Shown here: piece after piece, positions 1 to 47,285 of the stretch
Layout of the letters: each line of letters opens with the position of its first letter
Numbering within the stretch: position 1 is the stretch's first letter
DNA from: Dictyobacter arantiisoli
Lineage (GTDB): Bacteria; Chloroflexota; Ktedonobacteria; Ktedonobacterales; Ktedonobacteraceae
Assembly: GCF_008326305.1 (NCBI RefSeq)
Contig: NZ_BIXY01000050.1
Span: 1 to 52,338, forward strand
Reading direction: 5' to 3'
DNA length: 52,338 bases
Notes under the pieces: model-generated
Databases searched by the model: none
Told to the model about the DNA's origin: nothing
Seen by the model: the letters and a program-made list of their open reading frames with translations, nothing else
Program-made: the position numbers and the translations under genes

Positions 1-107
1 GTCTGCTGATCCGCTGGGAGAAGCGCCCGCGTTCCTATCAGACCTTGTTGTGCTTGGCTTGTGCGCTCATTTGCTTTCAACAATGTGATCGCGTTTCCTC
101 CTTGTAG
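1..107 (+). CDS. IS5-like transposase, C-terminal fragment (cut by window edge)
   Basis: An open frame enters from the left edge (codons in phase with position 3) and stops with TAG at 105-107. The visible 34 residues begin LLIRWEKRPRSYQTLLCLAC. A WEKxPxxYxxLLxLACAL pattern is typical of the last helix of IS5-family DDE transposases, so I read this as the end of an insertion sequence lying mostly outside the window. It overlaps the 3' end of the convergent hydrolase gene by about 30 bp, so the IS end may form that gene's last codons. The frame is short; family recognition rests on one motif. Confidence 0.55.
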   Translation, partial: LLIRWEKRPRSYQTLLCLACALICFQQCDRVSSL

Positions 108-1147
108 GTTTTCGGATAAGTTCTTAGAGGATTTAGAGTGTCACAATACTGGACTATGGCATCTTCAATAGTTGAAGTATCATGAATGGCACCACCATGA
201 CCATAGCAAAAGTCTTGGCTGTAACTGCTACCATAGAGCACTTTATGATTTGCTGCGGTGTAGAGCGGATCATCAGCAACTAAAAGATCACAACTGCTTG
301 TAACGACTGTCCAATCGGTCGTATATCCTGATACACTCGGGGCTTGCCCATGTGTAATCATGTCATTTATGAAAGCAGAATTTGTGGTCATTTGATGACC
401 TTGGTAACAACCAGCACATCCCCAAGTTGCTAACGCTTCACCAATATTAGGGGTATTAAATATGATAGCATCTGTTACATTCCCAATATTGGTTGGGAAA
501 CCAGCCGCATGATCTCTGACCAGTTGCAATGTTCTTCGTACAATGAGTCCCCCCATACTATGACCAACGAGGGTTTCAGCCCAACCATGTTGGCCAAAGT
601 TGTAGTAGAGGTACCATGCCAGTAAACAACTTATATGATCCATGTTCTCGTTATTTGTTCCTGCATTTGAATTTCCGCCACCAACATTTCCACATTGATT
701 TCGGTATGTTTGCGTTTGGAGATTAGCTGAGTAGGTGTGTTCATTTCCGTTGTCCGCACATCCTGAGCCATTTGGCTTGATTTCATTAGCGTAGTAAGTT
801 AGTTGTCGAAAGTCACCCTGCCAGCGACTACTTAAAAAGCTACGTGCATCGCTCCAATAGGTATCGCATCCGGGCATTTGGCTACTTCCATATGATGCAG
901 TTCCTGCTGAACCATCTCCCGCATTCAGTCCATGAACAGCAACGACACTTTCGTTAGAAGTAATTGAGAATGGAGTAACCAATGAAGGTTTATCTTGGTA
1001 TTTAGATATTGTTGCTTCTCCTCTCTTTGCATTATGAGGAGGCACTAGAGGTGATGCATCAGCAATAGGCGAGAGAAAAATCACTATTAATGTAAAGAAA
1101 TAAATGCTTAATGAGACGTGTTTAAAGTTAAAGATGTTTTGAAGCAC
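77..1147 (-). CDS. Secreted lipase-like alpha/beta hydrolase
   Basis: A 356-residue protein with an N-terminal signal peptide (hydrophobic run about residues 11-30, likely cleavage after the ADA-S region), so probably exported. GHSMGG at residues 195-200 is the nucleophile elbow of alpha/beta hydrolases (Ser197), in a lipase/PGAP1-like setting. VHGLNAG near residue 71 fits the oxyanion-hole strand. Likely Asp and His partners lie in the C-terminal third (CDLLVADDPLY and GHGGAIHD). The substrate is probably an ester or lipid, but this cannot be told. The start is GTG at 1147 with no good ribosome binding site, so it is uncertain. The last residues overlap the IS fragment at the left edge and may not be original. 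Base composition is AT-rich like its neighbours to 8.7 kb. Confidence 0.8.
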   Translation of the reverse strand: MLQNIFNFKHVSLSIYFFTLIVIFLSPIADASPLVPPHNAKRGEATISKYQDKPSLVTPFSITSNESVVAVHGLNAGDGSAGTASYGSSQMPGCDTYWSDARSFLSSRWQGDFRQLTYYANEIKPNGSGCADNGNEHTYSANLQTQTYRNQCGNVGGGNSNAGTNNENMDHISCLLAWYLYYNFGQHGWAETLVGHSMGGLIVRRTLQLVRDHAAGFPTNIGNVTDAIIFNTPNIGEALATWGCAGCYQGHQMTTNSAFINDMITHGQAPSVSGYTTDWTVVTSSCDLLVADDPLYTAANHKVLYGSSYSQDFCYGHGGAIHDTSTIEDAIVQYCDTLNPLRTYPKTYKEETRSHC

Positions 1148-1237
1148 GGAGTAAAATCGACGAAGTTTTGATTCCCTTCAAGCCTTACTTAATATTATAT
1201 ACTTTATATAAACAAAAGAGTGATGGAAGTATCATAA

Positions 1238-1758
1238 CAGATTTTTATACAAGATGCAATAGATTCTTTGAGAAAAATGTATGGAAATAGTTATCGTTTG
1301 TCGAAATTCTTGGGTCTGTGTCGTTTGAGTCAATTCACAGGTCTTTCGAAGCATAAATTGTTCATGACCACTCTTGGGGCTTACTGCGCACTTGCTGAAC
1401 TTGGATTTCTCAATGTAGGAGCGTAGCAACCAAGCAATTTTCCCTAAAGTGGATATGATCCAAATTATGGAACAGAAATTACTTCCAAGAACATTATTCT
1501 CGTATATGGATAATTATCGTGGTTTATCACAAAATGCTGCAACATGAACAAAGAGAATAAGTAACCTCATTTGATCTTTGAAATGAAATATTTCCCATTT
1601 TGATGGACATTTACTGAAAAAGCTAATAAAGAAGTGGAAAGTCTCAAATAACAAGGGAAACGGATTCCTTGCATCTGGGATAGAAGCGTGCTAGAAAAGC
1701 CAGAAATTAGTATTGCAGAAGGATTATAACCGGTTAGATCAAGTAAGGCAAAAAGGCT
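1238..1758 (+). pseudogene. Decayed gene of unknown family
   Basis: Two adjoining forward frames read as plausible protein. Codons from 1238 to about 1423 give a segment including LSKFLGLCRLSQFTGLSKHK and TTLGAYCALAELGFLNVGA. After a shift near 1415-1425 the next frame gives VDMIQIMEQKLLPRTLFSYM, then NYRGLSQNAAT, then a stop. The same frame continues to about 1758 with several further in-frame TGA/TAG codons but otherwise protein-like text (FDGHLLKKLIKKWKVSNNKG). This pattern of one frameshift and repeated stops suggests a dead gene. I do not recognise the family; a mobile-element protein is possible. It ends just before the hairpin at 1781-1822. Confidence 0.4.
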
Positions 1759-1780
1759 GAATCGTTCAATATTACTTACA

Positions 1781-1822
1781 AAAAACCGTTGGGTAGCTCT
1801 TATGCGCCACCCAACGGTTTTT
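1781..1822. terminator. Bidirectional intrinsic terminator
   Basis: A perfect 14-bp inverted repeat: AAAAACCGTTGGGT at 1781-1794 pairs with ACCCAACGGTTTTT at 1809-1822. The T-rich 3' arm gives a U-tract on the plus strand and the A-rich 5' arm gives one on the minus strand. It sits between the decayed plus-strand gene and the minus-strand membrane protein gene, so it can end transcripts from both sides. Confidence 0.8.
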
Positions 1823-1951
1823 TGTCAATGGAAAATGGAAGAAAATTTGAAATCGAACAAATGGACTCTTTTCTGATTCGATGCTCACAACACACATTCT
1901 CTAAAAACTTGTTAGTATGTTTTCATCTTGCTATCTTACCATACGCTATTT

Positions 1952-2473
1952 TTAATCATGTTTGTATGAACGCGCTTCTATGCTCAGAAATAGCCAACTT
2001 AAAAAACGCTGAAGAAGAGGACCAAACCCGGTTAGCAGAAAAGAAACAATCAAAGCCGCCCCAAGCCAGGGTAAAATACTTGTGAGAGGTGTATTAAAAG
2101 GCCATAAATTATCGTAAATCCCGCCACCAGAGATAAAGGCCCAATAATACCACTGCGCAATAATAATCATCCATAAGAATATTAAGATGCCCCACCAAGC
2201 AATTTTTGCTTGTAACGTTCCGAAACACAACAGGAACAAACCAATACCAATATATTCAAGAGCGCCAAACAGCAAACTAAACCCTACCAAACTCATAAAT
2301 GGAAGGTATCCAATTCTTGTAAAATAATGTCCACCTACTCCATAGTTTGTATCAACTACCTGGCTCGAAAAAACACCATATGCTTGATAAAGTCCCCACA
2401 AAATAACAAATCCCCCAGCAGTGAAAAGTATGCTTTTGCAAAGTGTGGATATCCTCATATTCGTATGCACCAT
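1952..2473 (-). CDS. Small multi-pass membrane protein, unknown function
   Basis: A 173-residue hydrophobic protein with about four transmembrane segments (roughly residues 13-32, 58-82, 85-112 and 130-150) and short polar loops. The loop after the first segment contains YGVGGHYFTRIG, and a later loop has ISGGGIYDNLWPF. A basic tail (RSYKHD) closes the protein. No enzyme or transporter motif was recognised. It is isolated, with an intrinsic terminator downstream and about 290 bp of AT-rich DNA upstream that separates it from the divergent secreted protein. Codon use is AT-rich like the surrounding accessory region. Membrane location is well supported; function is unknown. Confidence 0.65.
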   Translation of the reverse strand: MVHTNMRISTLCKSILFTAGGFVILWGLYQAYGVFSSQVVDTNYGVGGHYFTRIGYLPFMSLVGFSLLFGALEYIGIGLFLLCFGTLQAKIAWWGILIFLWMIIIAQWYYWAFISGGGIYDNLWPFNTPLTSILPWLGAALIVSFLLTGFGPLLQRFLSWLFLSIEARSYKHD

Positions 2474-2767
2474 TTCTTTTGAAAAAACATTAATAGCTTA
2501 AAGATACTCTGTAATATACTATAAATCATAAAAATATTTTATTCAATATTTCAAACACGTATATATTGCTATGATTAATAACACTAACCAAATCACATAA
2601 TACTTATTGACTTTTCCTTAAAAATATAGTATTTAAATACATGTAACTAAATTAATAACTGTAATAATAAACTTGTCGTTATTAACATTTAAACGATGAA
2701 TGCCATTTTCACCACCATTCCAAATCATGGAACAGCTTGAGTTAAACAGTGTAAAGAAAGGACTCTT

Positions 2768-3655
2768 ATGACCAATACTACAAATTCATGGAAGAAGACT
2801 TGCTTGATTTTTCTTCCTGTCTCAATTGCTCTCGTGTTGATCGTGCTTTTCATGCCATCCATTTATACGGAAGCACATGTATCAAGTAATGTTCCCTCTC
2901 CTCTTTCCACGAAGCAAGGTTCCTGGTTAACGCACAATACCACGCTTAGAAACCAAATCATCCACTATACACAAGTGGAGACACTATTCGTAAAACACGA
3001 TACAGGCCAAAACTATACAAGCACATTACTGGGTAATGTCTGGCTCGAAGTTGATGCTCAAGGCCATGTGCAAGTTGCTCATACCATCTATACATCACTG
3101 GATGAGAAGGTATTTCACCAGGAAATCTATGAAGATGGCACTACCAATATAGTTGTCTTCGGAAAAAATGATAGTAATCACCCGTCTATTAAGAACCCAA
3201 CCGCATCCTCAAATACAACTTGCCTTGTACAAAGTCCGGCAAATACAGTACAAATCAGAGATATGGCATTACCTTCTTTTGTTAATCTAAGCGATCTACA
3301 AAAACAGGGGTATGTTTTAAAAGTAAATGCACATACTAAATCCCAAAACGTGCCAACTATCCTGGTGACAACGAAGGCACTACCAGTGAAACAGTATGTT
3401 ACCAACGCCCCAGTTCATATCTGGGAAAATACAACGCAGCTTGCTGAAGTCAATGCACAACGCTTCGATCATTTCGAAATTGATCAACAGAATCGATTAG
3501 TATTCCATAGTACCGCCCGTAAAGACATGAATGGGACAATCATCAGTAGTTCCACATATTCCTACGGTACCATTAGTATCTATAACACTCACGATGTTTC
3601 TCTCTCTGTACTTTCTAACCCACAACAGATTCTAACAGAAGGATGCACACGATGA
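2768..3655 (+). CDS. Membrane-anchored or secreted protein, unknown function
   Basis: A 295-residue protein starting at an ATG with an AAAGGA ribosome binding site about 6 nt upstream. One hydrophobic segment at about residues 11-31 is preceded by basic residues, so it is a signal peptide or N-terminal anchor; the remainder is polar and extracytoplasmic, rich in Thr, Asn and Val. It contains two Cys (in TTCLVQ and the C-terminal EGCTR) that could form a disulfide. No catalytic motif was recognised. It overlaps the next gene by 4 bp (ATGA), so the two are translationally coupled and probably work together at the cell surface. Confidence 0.65.
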   Translation: MTNTTNSWKKTCLIFLPVSIALVLIVLFMPSIYTEAHVSSNVPSPLSTKQGSWLTHNTTLRNQIIHYTQVETLFVKHDTGQNYTSTLLGNVWLEVDAQGHVQVAHTIYTSLDEKVFHQEIYEDGTTNIVVFGKNDSNHPSIKNPTASSNTTCLVQSPANTVQIRDMALPSFVNLSDLQKQGYVLKVNAHTKSQNVPTILVTTKALPVKQYVTNAPVHIWENTTQLAEVNAQRFDHFEIDQQNRLVFHSTARKDMNGTIISSSTYSYGTISIYNTHDVSLSVLSNPQQILTEGCTR

Positions 3656-4119
3656 AACGATTCTTTCTTAGCTTAATAACAGTTTTAGCCTTGCTAAGCG
3701 CAGACGTATTCTTTTATCAAGGAAACATTGCTCATGCAGTCTCGTTGCAATGTGATCAGGGGCAGAATAACTATGCTGATCCGCAATACACATTTAGTGG
3801 TATTAGAATTTGGGGGGGTGTATGTATGGAGTATCCGACTAGTACAACTTGGGGAGCTATTGTTGAAACAAGATCAAGCCAATGGGCAACTATTGCATCC
3901 TTATCTTCTGGCATTGATCAGTGCGGCAGCAATGGTTCCTGGGTTTCTGAATTCAATCAACAAGGTAGTTACGCCAGCGCTAACTACGTTACTGTTACAG
4001 GAGTTGGAAACTATTTAGAATGTGATCAACTTGGTCATAACTACAAGGTTTATAGTGAACATGATATTTTGCTACAGGGTACCACGTACTTAACAATATA
4101 CAGTCACTTAAATCCCTAA
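3652..4119 (+). CDS. Small secreted protein, unknown function
   Basis: A 155-residue protein with a clear signal peptide (basic MKRFF, hydrophobic core about residues 5-20, likely cleavage after AHA). The mature part has four Cys (in LQCDQ, GVCMEY, DQCGSN and LECDQ), as in disulfide-stabilised exported proteins, and is rich in Ser, Thr, Gly and Tyr. The start at 3652 is chosen because AGAAGG at 3637-3642 is 9 nt upstream of this ATG, whereas the earlier ATG at 3643 touches the ribosome binding site. The ATGA overlap with the preceding gene indicates an operon of two exported proteins. Function is not recognised. Confidence 0.65.
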   Translation: MKRFFLSLITVLALLSADVFFYQGNIAHAVSLQCDQGQNNYADPQYTFSGIRIWGGVCMEYPTSTTWGAIVETRSSQWATIASLSSGIDQCGSNGSWVSEFNQQGSYASANYVTVTGVGNYLECDQLGHNYKVYSEHDILLQGTTYLTIYSHLNP

Positions 4120-4175
4120 CTGAAACCATTAATAGTATTTCCCTAAAACAGAGCATATTCTAAATGCCAATAAAG

Positions 4176-4221
4176 GGTTTGTAGAAAACGCGTGATAGGA
4201 AAAAGAAGACTTCTACAAACC
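4176..4221. repeat. Inverted repeat with long loop
   Basis: GGTTTGTAGAA (4176-4186) is perfectly repeated in inverse as TTCTACAAACC (4211-4221) with a 24-nt loop. It follows the secreted-protein pair and may be a weak terminator or the ends of a small lost element; there is no U-tract. Confidence 0.5.
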
Positions 4222-4237
4222 GGATATCTAGAGCAAA

Positions 4238-4276
4238 GCATGCGTATACGCGTCAAAGTGACGCATATACGCATGC
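4238..4276. repeat. Strong hairpin between secreted-protein operon and HAD fragment
   Basis: An 18-bp stem with one mismatch and a 3-nt loop: GCATGCGTATACGCGTCA at 4238-4255 against TGACGCATATACGCATGC at 4259-4276. It lies just outside the truncated HAD fragment, where the complete HAD gene has its own terminator. It lacks a long U-tract on either strand, so terminator function is likely but not certain. Confidence 0.55.
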
Positions 4277-4293
4277 TTGTTTGATGATTGGCG

Positions 4294-4555
4294 GCATGTT
4301 AGCGTGCGCTGGCCTGGGGATGCAGGAATTGTTCGGGGGTGATAAAACGGGTATCGCCGATCTGTTCGACGGTCAGGTCAGGGACAAATCCGTCACTAAA
4401 GCCAGCGTCGGCGTATTTGCCTTGCTTCACAAACAGGGTGGTGACAGTATCCCCTTTGATCTTCTTGATATCCATCAGGATCTGCGGCTTGTCGTCGATG
4501 ACCACATAGTGATCAGCGGGATAGCGGGCGCTGATTTCATCAAGATGGTGCTGCT
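4294..4555 (-). pseudogene. HAD hydrolase 3'-end fragment (duplicate)
   Basis: This 262-bp stretch matches 8764-9025, the last third of the complete HAD gene plus 5 bp beyond its stop, in the same orientation, with 11 mismatches by eye (about 96 percent identity). The longest open part encodes 68 residues (VIDDKPQIL to PQASAR) that align with the HAD C-terminus, including the motif III/IV region. The catalytic N-terminus (DxDNT) is missing and there is no start region, so it cannot be active. It is markedly more GC-rich than the DNA on either side. It forms a direct repeat with the intact copy, bracketing about 4.2 kb of AT-rich sequence. Confidence 0.85.
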
Positions 4556-5091
4556 AGAACAGGGGAGCGACTTCCGTTTTGAATATAAGATTTTCATAAA
4601 CAGTGGTGCATCTATAACCCATAATATTTATGAATACGAATTTACGCTTTACATATGACTATATTTAATAAAAAATTAATATTACTAAATTGATTAATAT
4701 TGACTTTTATGTTATACATTGATACAAGATTATATATAACTTACCATTTGCTTAAATCTTAGATGTATTTTGAGAATCGTCCTCTCAGGCATCCAACATT
4801 TGATCATGTAACTATAATTAAACCTTGCCTTGGTGATGAGGTTTGATTTTAATCTCAAATATTATTAGTAAGTGGGAACACATCTCTGTTTCTACCCAAA
4901 AATTTAAGCGAAAGATAAGATACAACATATAATTTTTACAAATTTTCTGATAATGTGTACCAGCTTAAAGTAAAGCTAAAGAGGAAGGTGTTATCAAATT
5001 AGAATCTTCTAGTGGTTAGATTTAAATCATGAAACAACTTTTTCCTTGTGTGATTCAAACGACATAATCTAGATGTAGAAAAGGATTGACT
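4556..5091. other. AT-rich intergenic region
   Basis: About 535 bp of very AT-rich sequence between the truncated HAD fragment and the next secreted protein. I see no convincing gene, tRNA or inverted repeat. It presumably holds the promoter of the downstream gene, but no clear -35/-10 pair could be assigned. Confidence 0.5.
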
Positions 5092-5910
5092 ATGAACTTT
5101 TGTCCAAAAAAATCCCCTCGTATTTTGAATACAAGGCAGCATTTTGAATTGCGTGTTGGACTTATAAGTCTAGCGATTTTATTTTCTCTTGCTTTCCAGC
5201 TCAATCAAACTTATGCTGCTGGTAATACACCCAAAATCACGTATAATTGCATTAATACTCCAGATTCAACCTCTGGTCACTGCTACTCTATGGCGGAATG
5301 GAATGGAGCTTCAGGAGCATTTACAGAGATTTTTACTAATCAACTTTATTCTGGTGGAGGATTTGTAACAAATGAAATGTGGATAGGATCTGGTAATACT
5401 CGATGGGTCGAAGCGGGGCTTATATCTTCCGATGTAAGTCTGACACAAGGTTCTGGATCATATAACCATGGTAGCACAGCTGAATTTTTGTTCTGGGGAG
5501 ATGTTAATAACAGTGGTAAATTTTATTTTCATCCCGGTCCTAATTTAGCTAGTAGTGATTTTGGGAAGACCGCATTTGTTGAAATACAGAAAACGTCATC
5601 TACTGCGTATGGGGTATATATTTCGAATCTTCCTAGTGCAAGCCTATTTGGTACGTCCACTAATAATACGATGTCTGACGATTATATACATACAGGCGGT
5701 GAATTATATGGGGCAACTACAGCTTCAGCGCCAGTAAATGGATATAGCTACAATGAATGGTATAACTCAAATGGTGGTGGAAGTTGGAATCTTCAAGGAG
5801 ATACCGATGGATTTGTTAATGGTCCCTGGGAGGGCTATTGGCAGTCAACTGCATCTTCTGATGGCATAGGTGGGGATTGGCGAACCTGTATTCGTGGTGC
5901 TGGCTGTTAA
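5092..5910 (+). CDS. Secreted protein, unknown function
   Basis: A 272-residue exported protein. It has a long N-region followed by a hydrophobic core at about residues 27-40 and a likely AYAA-type cleavage site. The mature part is rich in Gly, Ser, Asn, Trp and Tyr (WVEAGL, FLFWGDVNNSGKFYFH, NEWYNSNGGGSW), as in beta-sandwich extracellular or carbohydrate-associated proteins, though no family was recognised. Four Cys (YNCINT, GHCYS, two in RTCIRGAGC at the end) may form disulfides. AAGGA at 5081-5085 is 6 nt before the ATG at 5092, which is preferred over the upstream TTG at 5086. The next gene, 79 bp downstream, also encodes an exported protein and is probably co-transcribed. Confidence 0.65.
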   Translation: MNFCPKKSPRILNTRQHFELRVGLISLAILFSLAFQLNQTYAAGNTPKITYNCINTPDSTSGHCYSMAEWNGASGAFTEIFTNQLYSGGGFVTNEMWIGSGNTRWVEAGLISSDVSLTQGSGSYNHGSTAEFLFWGDVNNSGKFYFHPGPNLASSDFGKTAFVEIQKTSSTAYGVYISNLPSASLFGTSTNNTMSDDYIHTGGELYGATTASAPVNGYSYNEWYNSNGGGSWNLQGDTDGFVNGPWEGYWQSTASSDGIGGDWRTCIRGAGC

Positions 5911-5989
5911 CCATCAGGAGGATGTTTTACATTCATTTCCTCTTCAGGTTTTATAGGGAAAGTTTGACACTCATGAAAGGATATATGAG

Positions 5990-6550
5990 ATGAGAACTCG
6001 CTTATTCTCAGTTAGCTGTATTGTTGGCGCCGTGTTCTTTGGATTATTTATATTAGTACAACCAAATGTACAGGCAGAAAAGACAGATATTATCATACCA
6101 AAACCTTTAAATCTTTCTCAAATGAAAGCTAGCAGTTTGCCAGATCATCCAGGGCATCCGGCAATTGATCCTGTTAGCAGTGCAACTGAAATTAACACTG
6201 TACATTCAAATGTAGAAGTTTCCATTCGTGTTAAAAGTGATAATGTAAAAACGTATCTACTCAGTCATGAGTTTCCCTGTGGTCCACTCGTAGCAGGTGC
6301 AATTCTCAAGGTGGTTTCTATTGATTTACTTTCCAGTAAAGATGCATCAGCAAGATTAAGTGGTGAATCTTTAGGATTACCAGATACTGCTCCTGTGTAT
6401 TTAGTAAAAGTTCAAGGACCTTTTAAAACAACCATGATGCCCTTTGCTCCAGGAGCAAAAGCAATCTCTCAAGTTCCATATGGCATAGAAGTTTTCGATG
6501 CAGAAACTGGTAACATGCTGATTTGGAGTATTCCTATATACGGAAATTAA
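5990..6550 (+). CDS. Secreted protein, unknown function
   Basis: A 186-residue protein with a signal peptide (MRTRLF, then a hydrophobic segment about residues 8-24, cleavage probably after VQA). The rest is soluble, with a segment of VEVSIRVKSDNVKTYLLSHE type followed by GPFKTTMMPFAPGAK, suggesting a compact beta-rich extracellular domain. The ribosome binding site AAAGGA at 5976-5981 is 8 nt before the ATG. It follows the 272-residue secreted protein in the same direction and is closed by the terminator at 6591-6632. No catalytic motif is visible and the function is unknown. Given its position next to a convergent ECF sigma/anti-sigma pair, it could be part of an envelope response; that is only inference from location. 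Confidence 0.6.
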   Translation: MRTRLFSVSCIVGAVFFGLFILVQPNVQAEKTDIIIPKPLNLSQMKASSLPDHPGHPAIDPVSSATEINTVHSNVEVSIRVKSDNVKTYLLSHEFPCGPLVAGAILKVVSIDLLSSKDASARLSGESLGLPDTAPVYLVKVQGPFKTTMMPFAPGAKAISQVPYGIEVFDAETGNMLIWSIPIYGN

Positions 6551-6590
6551 TTTTTTGTATACATGATACGACATTGGCGAGATTTCATTT

Positions 6591-6632
6591 GGCAAAACAA
6601 CCTCAACTAAAATGAGGTTGTTCTAATTTGCC
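6591..6632. terminator. Bidirectional terminator
   Basis: AACAACCTCA (6596-6605) pairs with TGAGGTTGTT (6613-6622) around a 7-nt loop, extended by GGCAAA (6591-6596) with TTTGCC (6627-6632). It lies between the convergent secreted-protein and anti-sigma genes and can serve both. Confidence 0.65.
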
Positions 6633-6655
6633 AGCGAATGTAACCTATAATCAAC

Positions 6656-7930
6656 TTATTTCTTTACTGTCGCAGTTTCGGTTGCATTAAACATTTTTCG
6701 CAATTGATCTTGATTCACAGGATGGCACGTTCCGCAATTTGTATGTGTTGGTTGAGGCCCTGCTAAATGTATAAAATCTGCTTGAGAAATAACTGTCGCT
6801 TGTACTGGTGTCTTGCTTAAGAGATAATCCAGACGTATGTACAACGATTGATTGGTGGTTGGGGCTTTTTGAATAGATGATAGTGTAAGCGATAGCAGGT
6901 TAGCCGTATGAGTAGCAACGTATGCCTTCTTATCAGTTACATCTGGTATACGCATTATAAGCTCTGGTAAATTTTTTTGATCGACTATAAATGCTCCATA
7001 TTCTCCACCAGAGCTAGAATCTCCTGTAGGTAATGTGGTCATTTGCGTACATAGGGTCAGATGCCAGAGATTTGGCTGCTCTGGAAATGTTCCTTGTAAT
7101 ACTATCGATTGTTTTACCCTGTTTTGTACATGCATATAAATTATGCCTATTTCAAACTCTCCTATTGTTCCCAGTGATTGGATATGATCAGGAATAGTAA
7201 TACTGCTTCCTTGATGATATGGCAATATAGAATCAACCTCAATGTGTGGTAACGTTCCTGGGTGCGATGAACGATACGCATAAATGATACCAAATTCGCT
7301 GTTATTCACAATAGGAATAAACTCTACTGCAAATATGTTTTGCCCTTGCCGTATTGTCGTTGCGACCTGATCTTGTTGGAACATCCATATCGGTGGTTGT
7401 GAGGTTGAATCTACGCTAACTCCAGTTTTATTCTTTGATATAAATTGGCTGATAGCCGAAAAAAACAAGACGTTTAATAGAGCGATACACATAACCGCAG
7501 CAGCTAGTCCAACAACCCACCGTAAACGGTTCTTGTACCTTGCCTTCTCTCGTAATGAGACAAAACGAACTGGCTGTTGCGCTACGATTGATGAGCTTAA
7601 TGTTGCTGGCGTATGTTCTCCACCCATCAGTGTAATACGGTCAAGTATACTATCTGCCAGTAGCGATACGTTTCGTCTATAGGTGGGCGTAAGACTATAT
7701 TCATGAAGCATTGGTGATCGAAGATCATTCTCTGGTAATTTGAGGAGTGTATGAAGATGTGAGATGTCAGTCAACATATATTGACACTCCTGGCATGAAA
7801 CAAGATGATGCTCTACGAGCGCTTTTTCCAGATAGGTAAGCTCATCAGTTGAATAGCTGTCGAGAAGCACTATGACTGCTTTATGGTCATTAGAATCAAA
7901 CGCCTGGGTCGTTGATTGATCCTTTTTCAT
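6656..7930 (-). CDS. Transmembrane anti-sigma factor with C-terminal CXXCH motif
   Basis: A 424-residue protein. The cytoplasmic N-terminus has an HX3CX2C zinc-binding anti-sigma motif (His42, Cys46, Cys49), the feature that holds ECF sigma factors inactive. A single transmembrane helix lies at about residues 137-160 and leaves a roughly 260-residue extracytoplasmic domain. Near the C-terminus is CGTCH (Cys399-His403), the consensus for covalent c-type heme attachment, which is unusual for an anti-sigma factor. The start overlaps the sigma gene by 4 bp (ATGA), so the pair is translationally coupled, sigma first. Expected role: sequester the sigma factor until the outer domain senses its signal. 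The zinc motif and topology are clear; heme binding is inference from five residues. Confidence 0.8.
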   Translation of the reverse strand: MKKDQSTTQAFDSNDHKAVIVLLDSYSTDELTYLEKALVEHHLVSCQECQYMLTDISHLHTLLKLPENDLRSPMLHEYSLTPTYRRNVSLLADSILDRITLMGGEHTPATLSSSIVAQQPVRFVSLREKARYKNRLRWVVGLAAAVMCIALLNVLFFSAISQFISKNKTGVSVDSTSQPPIWMFQQDQVATTIRQGQNIFAVEFIPIVNNSEFGIIYAYRSSHPGTLPHIEVDSILPYHQGSSITIPDHIQSLGTIGEFEIGIIYMHVQNRVKQSIVLQGTFPEQPNLWHLTLCTQMTTLPTGDSSSGGEYGAFIVDQKNLPELIMRIPDVTDKKAYVATHTANLLSLTLSSIQKAPTTNQSLYIRLDYLLSKTPVQATVISQADFIHLAGPQPTHTNCGTCHPVNQDQLRKMFNATETATVKK

Positions 7931-8547
7931 AATAGCCCTTCCTCATCTTTTAATGTAACGTAGGCAGAACGCAATGTAATTAATCCACGAGCAATACGTT
8001 TGCGAACGGCTTCTGTGGTTGAATTGATTTTTTGTGCAATCTCGCCGTATGACTCATCACAACAAAAACGAAGAACGAGACAAAGTGCATCTTCTTCTGA
8101 TAATAAATGCAATGCTTCCACCAATAATTCTTTTACGAGATATCCTTCTTCTGGTAAGATATCGCTTATTTGCATATTTACTGATAGGCGGTTAGATATA
8201 TGTTCTAGCCGTTTCTGCTTCTTAAGAAAATCTAGTGCTTTATTCGTTGCGATTCGATAAAGCCAAGAAGATAATGGATGAATTTGGATGTGACACTTTT
8301 CATCTACTGAGGTTGTTTGGGTTAGTTCTGCTATATTCAGTTCGGGAGGTTTCCAGCGAGGGAGTGCGTAATAAGCGGCGGTCAAAGTCTCTTGAACCAC
8401 ATCGCGCGTACATTCCCAATCACGAAGAATGGAATAAATGTAGGTCAATAAGGGGCGTTCATAAACCAATACGAGAGCGCCAAATGCCTCTTGATCACCA
8501 GCCAGAGTTTGCCGTATTAAATTTAGTTCATGAGTATCCAGTGACAT
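7927..8547 (-). CDS. ECF-type RNA polymerase sigma factor
   Basis: A 206-residue group 4 (ECF) sigma factor. Region 2 spans about residues 15-100: GDQEAFGALVLVYERPLLTY, then the polymerase-binding and -10-recognition part with DVVQETLTAAYYALPRW and LSSWLYRIATNKALDFLKKQ. Region 4 (about 140-200) has LSEEDALCLVLRF, then the HTH SYGEIAQKINSTTEAVRKRI for -35 contact. A longer than usual linker joins the two regions. It is coupled by ATGA overlap to the downstream membrane anti-sigma gene. Together they form a surface-signal-responsive regulatory switch, possibly controlling the exported proteins in the same AT-rich region. No autoregulated promoter could be defined. Confidence 0.92.
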   Translation of the reverse strand: MSLDTHELNLIRQTLAGDQEAFGALVLVYERPLLTYIYSILRDWECTRDVVQETLTAAYYALPRWKPPELNIAELTQTTSVDEKCHIQIHPLSSWLYRIATNKALDFLKKQKRLEHISNRLSVNMQISDILPEEGYLVKELLVEALHLLSEEDALCLVLRFCCDESYGEIAQKINSTTEAVRKRIARGLITLRSAYVTLKDEEGLL

Positions 8548-8703
8548 CTATGTATATCCATTTCCACTCTTATTCCTTCTCATACAAGAAGAAGAAAACT
8601 TATATCAGATTGGCTTATAGAATGATAACTACTGGGAATGGCAAAAGCGGACAAAATAGTATTTGTTTGTCCATTTTAGGAATTGACATTTAGATAAACG
8701 AGT

Positions 8704-8735
8704 AAAAAAAGTACCCTTTGACAACCAAAGGGTAC
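8704..8735 (-). terminator. Intrinsic terminator of the HAD gene
   Basis: GTACCCTTTG (8711-8720) and CAAAGGGTAC (8726-8735) form a perfect 10-bp stem with a 5-nt loop. On the minus strand the stem is followed by seven U (A-run 8704-8710), a classic terminator 34 nt downstream of the HAD stop codon. Confidence 0.85.
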
Positions 8736-8768
8736 CTATCTCTCAGCCAGTGCCAGAACGATAGCATG

Positions 8769-9455
8769 TTAGCGTGCGCTGGCCTGGGGATGCAGGAATT
8801 GTTCGGGAGTGATAAAACGGGTATCGCCGATCTGTTCGACGGTCAGGTCAGGGACAAAGCCGTCGGTGAAGCCTGCATCGGCGTATTTGCCTTGCTTCAC
8901 AAACAGGGTGGTGACAGTATCCCCTTTGATCTTCTTGATATCCACCAGGATCTGCGGCTTGTCGTCGATGACCACATAGCGATCAGCGGGATAGCAGGCG
9001 CTGATTTCAGCAAGATGGTGCTGCTTATGGACAAAGAGCAATACACGACCATCCACGGCGGAGGCGATACTACTATTGACAATCTTCTCGGCCTGATAGT
9101 GTAAGTCACCATCCGAGACAATAACGGGCTGGCCGATGCGGTTCAGATAATCCAGGGTTTCCATGACGTGGGGATAGAGTTCATCCGCGAAAGGGAAATT
9201 GGTGAAGATGGAATGAACATGTTGATAGGTCAAATCATCCATCTCGGAGAGCGCTATATGTTCGCGAAAGCGCTCCAGAGCGAGAGGAATATCCACAACC
9301 TTCCGTTCATTGCGAACCTCTTCATAGATATCCCAATAGCGCTGAGCGAGTTGGGGTCCGACCTCGGCGTGGAGCGCCTCATTCTGTCTTTCTTTGATGG
9401 TATCGTTGTCCAATAATGTGTTATCAACATCGATCCAAAATACAAGTGTTGCCAT
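8769..9455 (-). CDS. HAD-superfamily hydrolase
   Basis: A 228-residue haloacid-dehalogenase-type phosphatase. Motif I is DVDNTLLDND (nucleophile Asp9, acid/base Asp11). A helical cap follows from about residue 20. Motif II is in VIVSDGD (around residue 114), and the motif III/IV region is YVVIDDKPQIL with the acidic DD that binds Mg2+. Length and order fit small-molecule phosphatases of the phosphoglycolate-phosphatase/beta-phosphoglucomutase class; the substrate cannot be told. It is a single-gene unit with its own terminator. The last 262 bp are duplicated as a direct repeat at 4294-4555. It is GC-richer than the region to its left and marks the boundary between accessory and ordinary DNA. 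Confidence 0.85.
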   Translation of the reverse strand: MATLVFWIDVDNTLLDNDTIKERQNEALHAEVGPQLAQRYWDIYEEVRNERKVVDIPLALERFREHIALSEMDDLTYQHVHSIFTNFPFADELYPHVMETLDYLNRIGQPVIVSDGDLHYQAEKIVNSSIASAVDGRVLLFVHKQHHLAEISACYPADRYVVIDDKPQILVDIKKIKGDTVTTLFVKQGKYADAGFTDGFVPDLTVEQIGDTRFITPEQFLHPQASAR

Positions 9456-9811
9456 GGTATGTTATCTCTCTTTATATTTAATGCTATGGTCTGATCAGGC
9501 ATGGGACGATTGCGTAACGGTTCCATTAAGAAACACGTATCGCAACCCTTGCCAGTATACGACCAGAACCTCTCTCAACACAAAATCTCGCTGGAGAAGG
9601 GGATACATGCCTCTCTTCAGCGAGATTTGTGCTGATATACACAATGAAATTGTCAAACTCCCACTACCATCGGGAGCTTGCTGGCAGGCGCTTGCGCGCC
9701 TGCGCCCTTTTTTAGTGTGGTGGAGAAAAAGATGTTTGAGTACCTACAGTGCGAAAACGCATGCACAGAAACCGTGGAGACCACGGATGCTTGCTGCTCA
9801 ACTGATGATCT
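9456..9811. other. Intergenic region with two hairpins
   Basis: A 356-bp gap between two minus-strand genes. It contains a perfect 11-bp stem at 9583-9628 (AAATCTCGCTG / CAGCGAGATTT, partly extendable inward), a plus-strand terminator-like hairpin at 9684-9713, and CCGTGG/CCACGG (9772-9786), a weak stem just past the ABC-F stop. No protein gene is convincing. Confidence 0.55.
9684..9713 (+). terminator. Intrinsic terminator on the plus strand with no upstream gene
   Basis: GCAGGCGC (9684-9691) and GCGCCTGC (9696-9703) form a GC-rich stem with a 4-nt loop, followed by GCCC and six T (9708-9713). The U-tract is on the plus strand although both neighbouring genes are on the minus strand, so it may end a small RNA or a stray plus-strand transcript. 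Confidence 0.6.
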
Positions 9812-11761
9812 CTAGCTAGCCATGTCGGCGAGTTGCTCCCATTCGGCGAGCAGCACATCGAGGCGAGCTTTGGCCTCTTCATATTCGGCCGAGAGTTGCG
9901 TGAGTTGCTCGGCGTTGCCTTCCAGCGCGGCCTGCGAGAGCGCGTCTTCCAGGCTTTTGACCTGGGCTTCGGCTTTCTCAACGTCGCGCTCAACCGCTTC
10001 CAGGGTGCGAACCTTTTCTTTGCTCCCTTTTTTGTTGCCTTTATTGGCGGGGACAGCTTTGGCTGGCTGGCTTTTCGCTACTACGGTCTTCGCAGGCGTA
10101 CTGGCACTTGCGGCATTGAGCGCGCTTTGCTGGCGACGCTGGCGATATTCCGTGTAATTGCCCTGGTAAGCATTGAGTACACCATCTTCAATGGCCCAGA
10201 TGCGGGTAGCCAGACTGTCAATAAAATAACGGTCGTGCGAGACGAAGAGCAAAGAGCCTTCGAATTCGCTCAAAATCTCTTCCAGGAACTGGCGTGATTG
10301 CAGATCCAGATGGTTGGTCGGCTCATCGAGGATCATCAGATTGGGACCCTGAAGCGTGAGTTTAGCAAGCGCGACACGGCTACGTTCACCACCACTGAGC
10401 TTGCCAATCGGCTTGAACACATCATCCCCACTGAAGAGGAAGCGGCCCAGCAAGCTCCGAGCGCCCTCTTCACTCAAGGCGCTCACCTGCCGAATCTCAT
10501 CGACAATTGTGCGCTCCATATCCAGTCCCGAGTGGGTCTGGGAATAATAGCCCACGCGCACGCTGCGGCCAATATTGACATGTCCATTGAGCGGCGGCAA
10601 TTCACCGATCAGGGTACGCAGGAGTGTCGTTTTGCCAGCGCCATTGGGACCCAGCAGGCCGACACGATCACCGCGTAGCAGTTCCAGTTCAGGAACCTGA
10701 ACCAGCACTTTATCCTCTGGCATCTCTGCCGTTGAATGCTCGCCTTTCGCACGATAGCCCACCGTCAGTTTATGGGTCTCGATCACAATCGTCCCACTGT
10801 CATTGACCGGCGTGAACTCAAAGTGCATTTCAGGCATATCCTGCGGGCGCTCGACACGATCCATACGATTCAGCAAAGTCTGGCGACCACGCGCCTCACG
10901 GCTCCGCTGCCCCGCTTTATACTTGCGAATAAACTCTTCAGTATGCGCGATATACGCCTGCTGAGCCTCATATTCACGGCGGCGCTGCTCCATACGCTCT
11001 TCGCGCAAGGAGAGATACTTCGTATAATTGCCGGGATATTCTTCGATGCGCCCAAAGGCCAGTTCAATCGTGCGTGTCACCACTTTATCCAGGAAATAGC
11101 GATCATGGGCCACAATCACCATCGCGCCATGCCAGGCGGTCAGGTAGCCCTCCAGCCACTCGAGGGTCGCCAGATCCAGATGGTTAGTCGGCTCGTCGAG
11201 GAGCAGCACCTCAGGTTCTTGCAAGAGCAGTTTGCCCAGAGCTGCACGCGTCTGCTGACCGCCGCTGAGTTGCATCACAGGTGATTCCTGCTGCTCACGC
11301 GTAAACTCCAGACCATCCATCACCTGCTCAACCCGATTCTCATAGGTATAGCCGCCAGCATGCTCATGCATCAACTGGAGCTGATCGTAGCGGCGGAGCA
11401 ACTTCTCATAGCGCACTGGATCATCCTGGACTGAAGCTATTTCAATCGCCAACTCACCGAGTTCGCGTTCCCAGGCACGTGCTTGCGCAAATACCGACAA
11501 CAACTCGGCGCGTAACGTATTTTCCGCATGGAAATCCGTCACCTGCGTCAGATAGCCCAGGCGTGTATTGCGGGCCAGCGCGATAGACCCCTCATCGGGC
11601 TCCTCGCGTTTCGCCAGGATATTCAACAACGTTGACTTCCCTGCCCCATTTGGTCCCACCAGACCAATACGATCCTGCGGCTCAACCTGAAAACTGATTC
11701 CCGAAAAGATGCGCTCGGCACCAAAGGATTTTCCCAAATTATTGATATTTACAACTGGCAT
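9812..11761 (-). CDS. ABC-F family ATPase
   Basis: A 649-residue soluble protein with two ATP-binding cassettes and no membrane segment, as in the ribosome-associated ABC-F family (Uup, EttA and antibiotic-resistance types). Cassette 1 has Walker A GPNGAGKSTLL, signature LSGGQQTRAALGKLLL and Walker B LLLDEPTNHLD. Cassette 2 has GPNGAGKTTLL, LSGGERSRVALAKLTL and LMILDEPTNHLD. An arm/linker lies between them. The C-terminal part (about residues 545-645) is Ala/Lys/Glu-rich and ends in a coiled coil, resembling the Uup C-terminal domain. Predicted role: binding the ribosomal E-site region and modulating translation, or target protection. Which subfamily it belongs to cannot be decided by eye. 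Confidence 0.93.
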   Translation of the reverse strand: MPVVNINNLGKSFGAERIFSGISFQVEPQDRIGLVGPNGAGKSTLLNILAKREEPDEGSIALARNTRLGYLTQVTDFHAENTLRAELLSVFAQARAWERELGELAIEIASVQDDPVRYEKLLRRYDQLQLMHEHAGGYTYENRVEQVMDGLEFTREQQESPVMQLSGGQQTRAALGKLLLQEPEVLLLDEPTNHLDLATLEWLEGYLTAWHGAMVIVAHDRYFLDKVVTRTIELAFGRIEEYPGNYTKYLSLREERMEQRRREYEAQQAYIAHTEEFIRKYKAGQRSREARGRQTLLNRMDRVERPQDMPEMHFEFTPVNDSGTIVIETHKLTVGYRAKGEHSTAEMPEDKVLVQVPELELLRGDRVGLLGPNGAGKTTLLRTLIGELPPLNGHVNIGRSVRVGYYSQTHSGLDMERTIVDEIRQVSALSEEGARSLLGRFLFSGDDVFKPIGKLSGGERSRVALAKLTLQGPNLMILDEPTNHLDLQSRQFLEEILSEFEGSLLFVSHDRYFIDSLATRIWAIEDGVLNAYQGNYTEYRQRRQQSALNAASASTPAKTVVAKSQPAKAVPANKGNKKGSKEKVRTLEAVERDVEKAEAQVKSLEDALSQAALEGNAEQLTQLSAEYEEAKARLDVLLAEWEQLADMAS

Positions 11762-11918
11762 TTATTTTTCACCCAAGAAATCAAAACAAGCAGAAAGAGA
11801 GTGGATATGTTTGAGTTAGCGTACCATAGTCATCCGCTTGACGCAAGAGTTATACTAGCGGCGGAGATCACAGGTCACTCTCATAGAACGAAAACCATCT
11901 GTAACAACCACCCATCAC

Positions 11919-12090
11919 GGGCAATACCGTTAAAAGAGCAGTAATCCCGATGGAGCGATGTAGGTGCGTGCCAAGGCCGCAGCCGAGGTGCGCTTTCCCG
12001 TTGACGTGCAATCATCTCTCCCGTAGGCCATATAGTACGATGAACAGCAAAGCGCACCTCGGTTGCGACCTCGGCACGCACCTACATCGC
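11919..12090. repeat. Palindromic intergenic repeat, copy A
   Basis: The core runs 11955-12090. It starts GCGATGTAGGTGCGTGCC and ends with its exact reverse complement GGCACGCACCTACATCGC, and the arms (each about 50 bp) continue with few mismatches around a roughly 30-bp centre. About 35 bp upstream, GGGCAATACCG (11919-11929) matches the outer end of copy C. The rest of the 570-bp gap between the ABC-F and phosphoribosyltransferase genes shows nothing clear. Open frames here are artefacts of the palindrome. Confidence 0.85.
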
Positions 12091-12332
12091 GGCCCGACGC
12101 TCTGTTCCCTGCCCTGGCACCGTTGTTTAGATATAAATACCTCTCCGTTTGTAGCCATACGCTCAAGGGATAGGCGGCCAAAATTTGCATTACGATCGGT
12201 ACCATTGCATAATGGAAGAGGTCAGGTACCAGCAGGCAGAATTCAGGGCAACCGGGATGAGGTTGGCTGAACTTATGCAATTTATGATATACTGAAGAAA
12301 CTAATCCTTCTGTTGAGAGAAAGGATGCTGAG

Positions 12333-13004
12333 GTGGCGAAAGAGCAGTCTCTGGATAATTTGTGGTTGGCCCAAACACTTTATGATCTGGGCGGCGTGAA
12401 ATTCGGCAACTTCACGGTCAGTGAATCTGCCGTCAGTTCTCCCGTTTTTGTGAATCCTAAAGTATTGATCAGTAACCCAACCGCGCTTCGTGTTGCGAGC
12501 AAATTAATGCAACAAGAAATTGATCTGGCCCAATCATTGCGCCGTCCACGCGTACACCCTTTTTCGGTCGTGGCCGGGGTGCCCGTGGGTGGACTATTAC
12601 TGGCCAGCGCCTATTCACTGGAAACAAATATTCCTTTGATTTATGCCCGCAGCCGACCGGAAGGGACCGGCAAACGCGGCATTGAGGGACATTTCACCCA
12701 GGGTGATACGGCGATTATTATCGACGACCTGATCACACGAGGAAGTAGCATCCTCGAAACAGCTTCACTGCTGGAAGAAAATGATCTGAAGGTAAAAGAT
12801 GTGATTGTGCTGATTGATCGCGAACATGGTGCGGTAGAACGCCTACGCAGTCATGGCTACAATCTGATCAGTATCTTAAAGCTAGACGTTATGCTCATGC
12901 ACTACATGTCACGAGGACTCATTAACGAAGAGACCTATCGAACATGTTCGGAGTATGTACGGAGCAAGCAAAGCGATACCCATACCGGGCCTCTGGGACT
13001 CTAA
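12333..13004 (+). CDS. pyrE: Orotate phosphoribosyltransferase-like protein
   Basis: A 223-residue type I phosphoribosyltransferase. The PRPP-binding motif is TAIIIDDLITRGSS (about residues 129-142), preceded by VVAGVPVGGLLLA (the PPi loop) and a flexible-loop segment RPEGTGKRGIEG. The N-terminal LGGVKFGNFTVSESAVSSPV matches the OPRT hood region. The C-terminal half (LKVKDVIVLIDREHGAVERL) resembles the OPRT domain of eukaryotic UMP synthase as I recall it. Expected reaction: orotate plus PRPP to OMP in de novo pyrimidine synthesis. The usual Lys-rich RKExKxHG loop is altered, so substrate or activity may differ. The start is GTG with GAAAGGA upstream. A very long hairpin follows directly. Confidence 0.78.
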   Translation: MAKEQSLDNLWLAQTLYDLGGVKFGNFTVSESAVSSPVFVNPKVLISNPTALRVASKLMQQEIDLAQSLRRPRVHPFSVVAGVPVGGLLLASAYSLETNIPLIYARSRPEGTGKRGIEGHFTQGDTAIIIDDLITRGSSILETASLLEENDLKVKDVIVLIDREHGAVERLRSHGYNLISILKLDVMLMHYMSRGLINEETYRTCSEYVRSKQSDTHTGPLGL

Positions 13005-13005
13005 A

Positions 13006-13075
13006 CCAGAGCACAAAGAAAGAGGGAGGTGTTGTGCCATTGTGCACAACACCTCCCTCTTTCTTTGTGCTCTGG
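13006..13075 (+). terminator. Perfect 32-bp hairpin after the phosphoribosyltransferase gene
   Basis: A 32-bp arm beginning CCAGAGCACAAAG at 13006 is exactly inverted at 13044-13075 around the 6-nt loop CATTGT. It begins 2 nt after the TAA stop. There is no U-tract, so it may act as a terminator by strength alone, as an RNA-stabilising 3' structure, or as the remnant of a palindromic element. Confidence 0.6.
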
Positions 13076-13100
13076 CACGGACATAACAACCACCCATGAA

Positions 13101-13140
13101 GGGCAATACCACAAATCATTTTATTTAAGCGGTATTGACC
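13101..13140. repeat. Remnant of the palindromic repeat (ends only)
   Basis: GGGCAATACC (13101-13110) and AAGCGGTATTGACC (13127-13140) match the two outer ends of repeat copy C with only about 16 bp between them. The sequence just before (AACAACCACCCAT, 13086-13098) also occurs upstream of copy A, supporting a shared origin. Confidence 0.6.
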
Positions 13141-13184
13141 GTAAGGGTTCGCGTTTCGGGGAAATGAGGGAAGATGATCGAAGA

Positions 13185-15056
13185 TTATGCCGGCGTGGCA
13201 TCCCAATGTACGGGTAGACCTTCCATTTGCATGATGCGCAGGGCGTTGCGCGTGGGGCTGGGGCCATCATGCAGCAGATATTCAAAGACCATCTTGCCGT
13301 CGATGATGTTTTCACGGAAGTGATAGTTTTTAATCATGGGATTCCCCTCAGCCAACTGGACAAGTTCAAGATCATGGGTCGAGATGGCTCCTACGCACTT
13401 TTTGTCGACCAGCGCCCGAATATAGGCTTCGCTGCCGATGGCTCGCTCATAGTTGTTGGTGCCCCGAAAGATTTCATCGATCAAGAAGAAGACAGGATGA
13501 TCAGTGCCTTCATCGAGTAGATCCAGCAACCCTTTGAGACGGCGCACTTCGGCATAGAAGTAGGAGTAACCGTCGGCCAGCGAGTCGGTGACGCGAATAC
13601 AGGCGTAAAGATCGAAAATGGTGGTTTTAAACGAGGCGGCGTTGACGACGCTTCCGGCATAGGCCAGCACCAGATTGATGCCGATGGTGCGTAAGAAGGT
13701 GCTTTTACCCGCCATATTGGAGCCGGTGATCAACAGGATCTCGCCCGCCGGGTCCATCGTGAAGTCATTGACGACCTTGTGCTCAGGCTTGATCAGAGGA
13801 TGTCCCAATGCTTGCGCATCGAAGAAGATGGGATCGCCCGATCGCTTGCGCACTTCAAGCTCAGGGAAGGTGTACTCTGGATGCAAATGCGCGAAGTTTG
13901 CCAGTGAGTTGGCGGCCTCTAACTCATACCAAACATCCAGCCAGACTGGCAGATATTCCGCGAGCAGGGTGGTACACTGGATAAGTTGATGGGCCAGGAT
14001 GGCTCCAATGGGGAAGAGGACATTTACCAACGCCCAGCCTTCGGAGCTGGTGGATAAGGTGGCGCGGTTCAAGATGCGTTCGATGCGCTTGAGGAGGATG
14101 GATGGACGACGGTCGGCATGCAAGAAGAAGGGTTCACAGAGCTGACGTAGCCGCGATTTTTTGGCATAGCGGTTCTTTTCCAGAAATTCAAAGATCAGTT
14201 GCAATTGTCCAAAGGCGATACGCTGCCGATTGCTGCTTTGCGAAAGCTGTCCCTGCTCTTTTTTGGTGCGTAGATACCAGAACAGGCTACAAAGCAACGC
14301 CGCAACGCAGAATAGTACAGAGGTATGCACAAAGAGGAAAGCCAGAATTGAGGCATAGAACAGACATGCCAGCAGGAGCGCGACAACCAGGGATGAGAGA
14401 GGCTGTTTGAAGTTTGCTTGTTCCTGGACCCAGGCCGTCAGGGCTTCACTATCGATGGGACTGGTGGAGAAGCGCGTGGCAAAGAGAGAATTGAGCAGGA
14501 ACTTATTGCGGAATCCGGTCATGGGGATGAGTTCGCGCACCAGACTGCGGCGCGCCCGTATGACCTCCAGATCAGGATTCAGTTCCAGCAACCAATCGCG
14601 CAAGAGCAGAGTTCCCTCTAAAGAGACGCCCGTATTGAGTAAACGATGCAGTGAACGCTCTCCGCTGATATCCAGATCGAGCTCAAAAGGATGCATCTCG
14701 CCCATCTCCTGCTCCTCACGCGGAGGGACAGGTGGCAGGGCATCCCAATCCAGGTTCAGGCGTGCAATCTGTGTATTCAGCATCCGCACCCAGGACTCAT
14801 AGCGCAGAGCGCTCTTGCCAAACGCAGGCTGTAGACGCGCTCTCAGCCAGAAGATCACGCACGAGAGCAGAATACAGATAAAACCAATCCAATGGACCAG
14901 CGACAGAAATGTCACCGTCACAAAGATACAGAGCGCCAGGATGATGAGGGTTCGCATCTTATTCTGCTGATCCAGTGCCTGTACCTTTGCCAGCCGACGT
15001 TGCACTCGCGCCAATTGCCGCTCAAGCACCACCTGCCGAGATGGGATAGTATCCAT
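13185..15056 (-). CDS. Membrane-anchored MutS-family ATPase
   Basis: A 623-residue protein. The C-terminal domain (from about residue 435) is a MutS domain V ATPase: Walker A TGSNMAGKST (about 445), an aromatic/acidic segment DSLADGYSYFYAE, Walker B FFLIDEIFRGTN, and the STHD switch. The N-terminal half lacks the MutS mismatch-binding domain and instead has two hydrophobic hairpins (about residues 48-88 and 220-265), so it is probably a membrane protein with cytosolic MutS core and ATPase domains. It is therefore unlikely to be the canonical mismatch-repair protein. Homologues are often annotated simply as MutS-related; the cellular role is unknown. An AAGGAAG ribosome binding site precedes the start. 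It stands alone. Confidence 0.88.
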   Translation of the reverse strand: MDTIPSRQVVLERQLARVQRRLAKVQALDQQNKMRTLIILALCIFVTVTFLSLVHWIGFICILLSCVIFWLRARLQPAFGKSALRYESWVRMLNTQIARLNLDWDALPPVPPREEQEMGEMHPFELDLDISGERSLHRLLNTGVSLEGTLLLRDWLLELNPDLEVIRARRSLVRELIPMTGFRNKFLLNSLFATRFSTSPIDSEALTAWVQEQANFKQPLSSLVVALLLACLFYASILAFLFVHTSVLFCVAALLCSLFWYLRTKKEQGQLSQSSNRQRIAFGQLQLIFEFLEKNRYAKKSRLRQLCEPFFLHADRRPSILLKRIERILNRATLSTSSEGWALVNVLFPIGAILAHQLIQCTTLLAEYLPVWLDVWYELEAANSLANFAHLHPEYTFPELEVRKRSGDPIFFDAQALGHPLIKPEHKVVNDFTMDPAGEILLITGSNMAGKSTFLRTIGINLVLAYAGSVVNAASFKTTIFDLYACIRVTDSLADGYSYFYAEVRRLKGLLDLLDEGTDHPVFFLIDEIFRGTNNYERAIGSEAYIRALVDKKCVGAISTHDLELVQLAEGNPMIKNYHFRENIIDGKMVFEYLLHDGPSPTRNALRIMQMEGLPVHWDATPA

Positions 15057-15261
15057 CTAACTTCTTCCTTATCATATGAAATTACATCTATCATCCACCC
15101 GCCAATCGCTGGCGAGAACAAAAGCATAACCATTGACCATTGTCGCACACAACATCGAACATCACAATCCTGAACCATTCAAAGAACGAGAGGGTGGCTG
15201 CTACGGGTGGCTCCTCTGGCCTTCATTCCTCTTCTTTAAACGGTATTGTGCGAGCCAGGTG

Positions 15262-15267
15262 TATAAT
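15262..15267 (+). promoter_or_regulatory. Candidate -10 element for the 90-residue protein gene
   Basis: TATAAT at 15262-15267 lies about 45 bp upstream of the ATG. No good -35 is visible at 17 bp. A repeat-family end (CTTTAAACGGTATTG, 15234-15248) overlaps the -35 region, so the repeat may supply part of this promoter. Confidence 0.45.
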
Positions 15268-15312
15268 AGGGGGTGAGTTTTTCGATATTTCCAGGTAGGA
15301 GTTGGTGAATAA

Positions 15313-15585
15313 ATGAAGGTTGTGTTTAAGAGTAAGGATTTTGCGAGCGTGGATAGCTCGGGTTATGGCTTTAATAATCGTCGACCAATGGCGAATCCCT
15401 GGCAGTATCAGGGGCGAGTACAGCATCGCCAGTGGCAGGGGATCTATGAGTGTGGTTGGCAGAAGACGAATGATCGTTTGAAGCAGGATGAGCTGCTGTG
15501 GACGGTGCGCGGCGATGCTCGTTTGTTTGGTCTGGCCGCCGCCCTGAAGACGAAGGGCTTTGAGGTCGAGGTAGAACAGGATTAG
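15313..15585 (+). CDS. Small protein of unknown function
   Basis: A 90-residue soluble protein beginning MKVVFKSKDFASVDSSGYGF and ending in an acidic tail (VEVEQD). It is rich in Trp and Gln in the middle (WQYQGRVQHRQWQG), followed by an alternating segment ELLWTVRGDARLFGLAAALK and a KGFEVEV strand, suggesting a small alpha/beta fold. An AGGTAGGAG ribosome binding site lies 12 nt upstream, and TATAAT is present 45 bp upstream, so expression is plausible. It lies between the MutS-like and MocR genes, both of which are on the other strand, so it is a single-gene unit. No family was recognised. Confidence 0.6.
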   Translation: MKVVFKSKDFASVDSSGYGFNNRRPMANPWQYQGRVQHRQWQGIYECGWQKTNDRLKQDELLWTVRGDARLFGLAAALKTKGFEVEVEQD

Positions 15586-23581: not shown

Positions 23582-23628
23582 AGGGGAGATGTAGGCTGAT
23601 GTCAGGGCAAGGGACAGATCGTTGGGAA

Positions 23629-47250: not shown

Positions 47251-47285
47251 GGTAAAGAGTGCCATGATCGGGTTTTGGCATCCGT

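Follow-up and report, generated by a model that had tools for sequence, protein, structure and literature searches.

A displaced 3' end of a HAD-family hydrolase gene in AT-rich DNA of Dictyobacter arantiisoli, most likely the scar of a past DNA import

The prophage e14 of E. coli is an integrase-driven element. When e14 enters icd, the incoming DNA supplies a 3' end for the gene, and a 163-bp displaced end with a few differences lies at the far side of the insert (PMC6379469). A CIME (cis-mobilizable element) has no recombination genes but keeps functional attL and attR. Segments free of integration genes, bounded by direct repeats of a gene 3' end and located in a variable region past that gene, are known as CIMEs and from the ssrA islands of Dehalococcoides (PMC3146451, PMC5704250); 15 of these ssrA islands have no integration module (PMC3146451). 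In homology-facilitated illegitimate recombination or Campbell-type integration, a stretch of homology at one end, or a single crossover, links imported DNA to the chromosome, so that it is added beside the homologous gene (PMC3240628).

Here we describe a related layout in Dictyobacter arantiisoli, a soil bacterium of the Dictyobacter group. The window, a stretch of 52,338 nucleotides on contig C50, belongs to a 7.2 Mb draft assembly of 256 contigs with a contamination estimate of 2.1%. Near its start lie an intact gene for a HAD-family hydrolase and a detached copy of the 3' end of that gene, which was most likely left behind when DNA was once imported beside this conserved gene. As with e14 at icd, a direct repeat of a gene 3' end flanks an insert and the gene stays intact, but here there is no integrase and the displaced end lies away from the compositional boundary. 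The locus resembles the CIMEs and the ssrA islands, which come from the same phylum, in lacking integration genes, in its gene-3'-end direct repeats and in its position downstream of a gene. Whereas the Dehalococcoides repeat is 20 bp long, is reused across strains and has related recombinase-bearing islands, the HAD repeat measures 262 bp, was used once and has no such island known. Campbell-type and illegitimate import are known from laboratory conjugation and transformation, whereas the HAD case is read from one genome only. The features of the repeat are as follows.

8769..9455, minus strand: intact HAD-family hydrolase gene, 228 aa (open reading frame; Pfam PF00702, Hydrolase, E=7e-6; homologues 38-63% identical in 43 of 60 relatives)
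8764..9025, minus strand: HAD 3' end in the intact gene, a repeat copy that runs 5 bp beyond the stop codon (two copies genome-wide, no more)
4294..4555, minus strand: displaced HAD 3' fragment, the other repeat copy, codons 144-228 plus 5 bp (95.8% identical; in-frame stop before the fragment)

The two copies align over 262 nt without gaps and in the same orientation, with 11 mismatches, which bears out the direct repeat of about 96% identity reported in the preliminary description. The repeat comprises the last 257 bp of the HAD gene and the 5 bp that follow its stop codon. A search of the genome against itself found it in two places in all of the 7.2 Mb assembly (E = 4e-119), which rules out chance. 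No third HAD fragment was found in the assembly, including at the far end of the AT-rich DNA. The detached copy corresponds to the last third of the gene and lies 4.5 kb beyond the intact copy; it contains no internal stop and no frameshift, is incomplete as a gene and is without predicted function.

The surrounding DNA differs from the rest of the window in composition, and its outer parts are the following.

125..4293, no strand: AT-rich DNA on the far side of the fragment (compositionally one unit with 4556-8763)
1..124, no strand: IS-like high-copy repeat end (recurs at about 20 further sites, almost all of them at contig ends)

An AT-rich island bracketed by the two repeats had been proposed. 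We instead found that ~125-8730 forms a single AT-rich unit (38.8% GC vs 52.1% to its right), with the best single GC changepoint in the window, by likelihood, at 8729 and equal AT-richness leftwards to the contig start. The two 4.2-kb stretches beside the fragment are equally AT-rich and alike in gene style, and the 4-mer distance between them is 0.219, against 0.26-0.28 for the nearest of 299 segments of the same genome. Since AT-richness runs on left to 125, only the right repeat marks a change in composition, and AT-rich DNA surrounds the fragment on both sides. In a genomic island the repeats would mark both limits of the foreign composition; here the right end at ~8729 alone is a boundary. 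The proposed layout of gene, insert and displaced 3' end is therefore correct in its topology, and integration at the 3' end is possible, but the repeats do not delimit an island because AT-richness and gene style continue for a further 4.2 kb. No shared sequence was found between the two AT-rich segments, or between the 300-bp flanks of the two HAD copies. Tandem duplication in its simple form, which had also been suggested, fails because no similarity exists between the sequence to the left of the fragment and that to the left of the intact gene.

At the contig start, the IS-like repeat at 1-124 provides the last codons of the lipase-like gene 77-1147 and thereby truncates it. An IS-flanked composite transposon was considered and rejected; the IS-like end occurs at 1-124 only, and a 150-bp query had no other match on contig C50. 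We also weighed a chimera of assembly or strain mixture at 4555/4556. The assembly is a draft in many contigs, and the two alleles could stem from two strains in one sample. Against this, contigs of this assembly break at repeat ends of ~124-127 bp, as expected from long-k assembly, the 4555/4556 junction lies in genome-unique DNA, and the contamination estimate is the low figure given above; we regard such a chimera as highly improbable.

The AT-rich unit carries the following genes on the two sides of the fragment.

7927..8547, minus strand: ECF-type RNA polymerase sigma factor (Pfam and NCBIfam; homologues adjoin anti-sigma genes in relatives)
6656..7930, minus strand: anti-sigma factor with an N-terminal zf-HC2-like zinc finger and a membrane span predicted from sequence (pair with sigma kept in G001, G002 and G003)
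5990..6550, plus strand: small secreted or anchored protein, no assigned function (homologues adjoin 5086-like or 6656-like genes in G033, G044 and G028)
5086..5910, plus strand: secreted-type protein of no known family (broken paralogue in the same genome, C42:26766-27334)
3643-4119 and 2768-3655, plus strand: secreted-type proteins (open reading frames left of the fragment)
1952-2473, minus strand: membrane protein (open reading frame left of the fragment)
77-1147, minus strand: lipase-like protein (open reading frame left of the fragment)

The first four of these (5086, 5990, 6656 and 7927) fill the 4556-8763 segment, so that the two secreted-protein genes and the sigma/anti-sigma pair noted earlier between the repeats were all recovered, again with no integrase. 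Homologues of the sigma/anti-sigma pair occur in other Dictyobacter and elsewhere in the family. The 5086 protein has no family in Pfam, NCBIfam, PHROGs or PDB. In G033 and G044 the homologue of 5990 has a 5086-like neighbour, and in G028 an anti-sigma-like one, which suggests that the cargo of this segment is a sigma-controlled secreted-protein module. In G015, a 5990-like and a 3643-like gene occur on one partly AT-rich contig, and genes from both sides of the fragment therefore belong to one shared gene pool. Plasmid and phage collections held no match to the segment or its proteins, and no HAD relative was found among viral contigs.

These gene contents bear on a second possibility, in which an element equipped with a HAD 3' end of its own integrated site-specifically at the end of the gene, its integrase having since been lost or acting in trans. 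The 4.2-kb segment would then be what remains of a CIME-like element, and may be one of two such segments that accreted. In support, HAD is left whole by a repeat that stops 5 bp after the stop codon, the layout matches those of e14 at icd (PMC6379469) and of the Dehalococcoides ssrA islands (PMC3146451), and the 17 Phage_integrase matches over cut-off in the genome could supply the activity in trans. However, there is no integrase among the genes of 1-8763 and no PF00589 match on contig C50, the four genes leave little room for an integrase relic, the far end lacks a third HAD fragment, and the repeats do not bound the AT-richness. We consider such an integration unlikely.

To place the locus in its lineage, we compared it with related genomes. 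All seven relatives examined have the JAB, SpeE-like and PurA genes after HAD, at a distance of up to 0.5 kb in five and of up to ~5 kb in two. In this genome the order conserved in Ktedonobacterales is split: JAB-SpeE-PurA lies on contig C82 (L091 2647-12503), where the upstream DNA has ordinary GC and unrelated genes, and HAD debris is absent. This lineage thus has a rearrangement or synteny breakpoint on the 3' side of HAD, with the AT-rich unit to one side of the break. The suggested comparison with relatives for an empty site with a single HAD copy gave the HAD-JAB-SpeE-PurA order in 7/7, but with the cluster on another contig here, and with the wider rearrangement at HAD, a simple pair of filled and empty sites cannot be demonstrated. 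The collections contain no close strain (the best HAD match is 63%), and neither a donor nor an empty site was seen. On the other side of the gene, within 8769-15585 of the window, ABC-F, phosphoribosyltransferase and MutS-like genes separate HAD from its usual upstream neighbour (15313-15585).

A further HAD 3' piece is absent from all 43 relatives that have the gene, which indicates that the end of this gene is not a commonly used integration site and counts further against site-specific integration, as repeated use of the site is not seen. For a CIME, a related, recombinase-bearing element would be expected at the same site in kin genomes; here these 43 relatives lack the fragment and seven have HAD followed by JAB.

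We then considered how the two HAD 3' ends differ. Both copies have changes of their own that are atypical of relatives. At codons 154 and 159 the fragment has R and H, as do most relatives, where the intact gene has C154 and R159; M171 and S197 of the fragment are absent from relatives. Given that G014, the top-scoring relative outside the genus, likewise has A149 and R159, the polarity of these changes is uncertain. Synonymous changes account for 5-6 of the 11 differences, against 26% expected, a borderline excess on few differences (P 0.04-0.13). The differences are also clustered, with 6 of the 11 inside 19 nt (P 0.0016), a pattern closer to mosaic exchange than to steady decay. A separate structure lies past the end of each copy.

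8709..8737, minus strand: terminator-like stem-loop with a T tract, following intact HAD ~27 bp beyond the repeat (z -3.9)
4236..4278, minus strand: stem-loop with 20-bp arms (AAGCATGCGTATACGCGTCA), ~16 bp past the displaced HAD 3' end (z -6.4; very stable; no T tract; unique in the genome)

The strong stem-loop past each 3' end (at 16-27 bp) differs from the other and is followed by unrelated DNA, as expected of two gene ends with different downstream DNA. That at 4236-4278 was also considered as a dispersed repeat, and rejected as it occurs once in the genome. Together the private changes, the synonymous share, the clustering, the absence of inactivation and the separate stem-loops are suggestive, rather than strong, indications that the copies are two real gene ends from two lineages and not a gene and a random, decaying internal copy.

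Partly synonymous differences and the absence of inactivating changes could also be accounted for by the remnant of an old duplicate, an outcome that the preliminary description had named as one that would overturn its reading. In this case a second HAD gene at ~4300-5000 would have diverged while working, and would then have been mostly deleted and overwritten by AT-rich insertions. Such a history has to explain why the first 143 codons are wholly gone while the last 85 stand at 95.8% identity with sharp ends, and why the two flanks have no other sequence in common. We judge it rather unlikely, and favour instead the joining of two diverged gene ends.

A comparable arrangement was found elsewhere in the genome. 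We scanned a 1.3-Mb sample for near-duplicates; contig C42 was included because it had been fetched for the 5086 paralogue and not at random, and a 165-bp inverted pair on C3 was left out. C42 and C50 alone show same-orientation displaced pieces of single genes. The other matches were tandem repeats, repeats inside a gene or gene family, a tRNA-Thr pair (C7) and inverted-repeat elements. The pair on C42 lies as follows.

L066 4908-5137 and 8671-8906 (locus starts at 17000 of C42): C42 piece pair

Here 236 bp from the interior of a gene that by its sequence resembles an aldehyde dehydrogenase recur 3.8 kb downstream in the same orientation at 92.8% identity. Nine of 11 substitutions are synonymous (P 1.5e-4), and short pieces that diverged as working genes do therefore adjoin their relatives in this genome. 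The likeness of this piece to the HAD fragment also speaks for an old duplicate. As the piece is internal and not at a gene 3' end, such layouts arise without 3'-end targeting and the process at HAD need not be site-specific, which again argues against site-specific integration. The piece lies 0.85 kb from the broken 5086 paralogue; given how the contig was chosen, this coincidence is a lead and not a result. Displaced pieces of working alleles may recur by the same AT-rich secreted-protein genes (5086-type within ~1 kb on both C50 and C42), as the mark of an unrecognised, integrase-less process of Ktedonobacterales that inserts cassettes together with a piece of the neighbouring gene; we regard this as highly speculative.

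Two further repeats were observed in this genome. Near-identical tRNA-Thr-like genes at G000:C7:64267-64367 and 68668-68768, 4.4 kb apart, flank a locally AT-rich stretch and mark a possible integration site. A dispersed palindromic repeat with the core AACGGGAAAGCGCACCTCGG...CACGCACCTACA occurs in the window at 11909-12119, 23491-23899 and 47028-47261 and on C82 (L091 4172-4355), and has the look of a MITE or REP-type element.

These data allow us to propose, tentatively, that one additive recombination event joined two diverged HAD 3' ends, each already followed by AT-rich DNA of its own. The repeat and its geometry, the compositional unity of the AT-rich DNA, the broken synteny at HAD and the lack of an integrase and of a third copy are directly observed; the proposal also draws on the changes private to each copy, on their clustering, on the two stem-loops and on the parallel piece on C42. 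Incoming DNA from a related lineage would have borne its own HAD 3' end with AT-rich DNA attached downstream. It would have entered at the 3' region of the recipient's HAD gene, either through one crossover within the sequence common to both (Campbell-type) or through homology-facilitated illegitimate recombination. A single crossover would yield exactly the present order, with a unit of 4470 bp (262 + 4208). The outcome would be an intact HAD gene, an AT-rich segment with the sigma/anti-sigma pair and two secreted proteins, the leftover HAD 3' end, and the other AT-rich segment. The foreign origin of one allele and the crossover itself are inferred, and either AT-rich segment may have been the last to arrive.

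The HAD scar would thus represent gene import beside a conserved gene, an event of a known kind for which a recombinase is not demonstrated, and a fairly ordinary example of bacterial gene gain. It provides a readable import scar in a poorly studied lineage, in which two different AT-rich gene sets, one including a probable sigma-controlled secreted-protein module, are stacked behind one gene with no visible recombinase. If the parallel on C42 holds in more genomes, a route of AT-rich gene acquisition in these large-genome bacteria would become testable.
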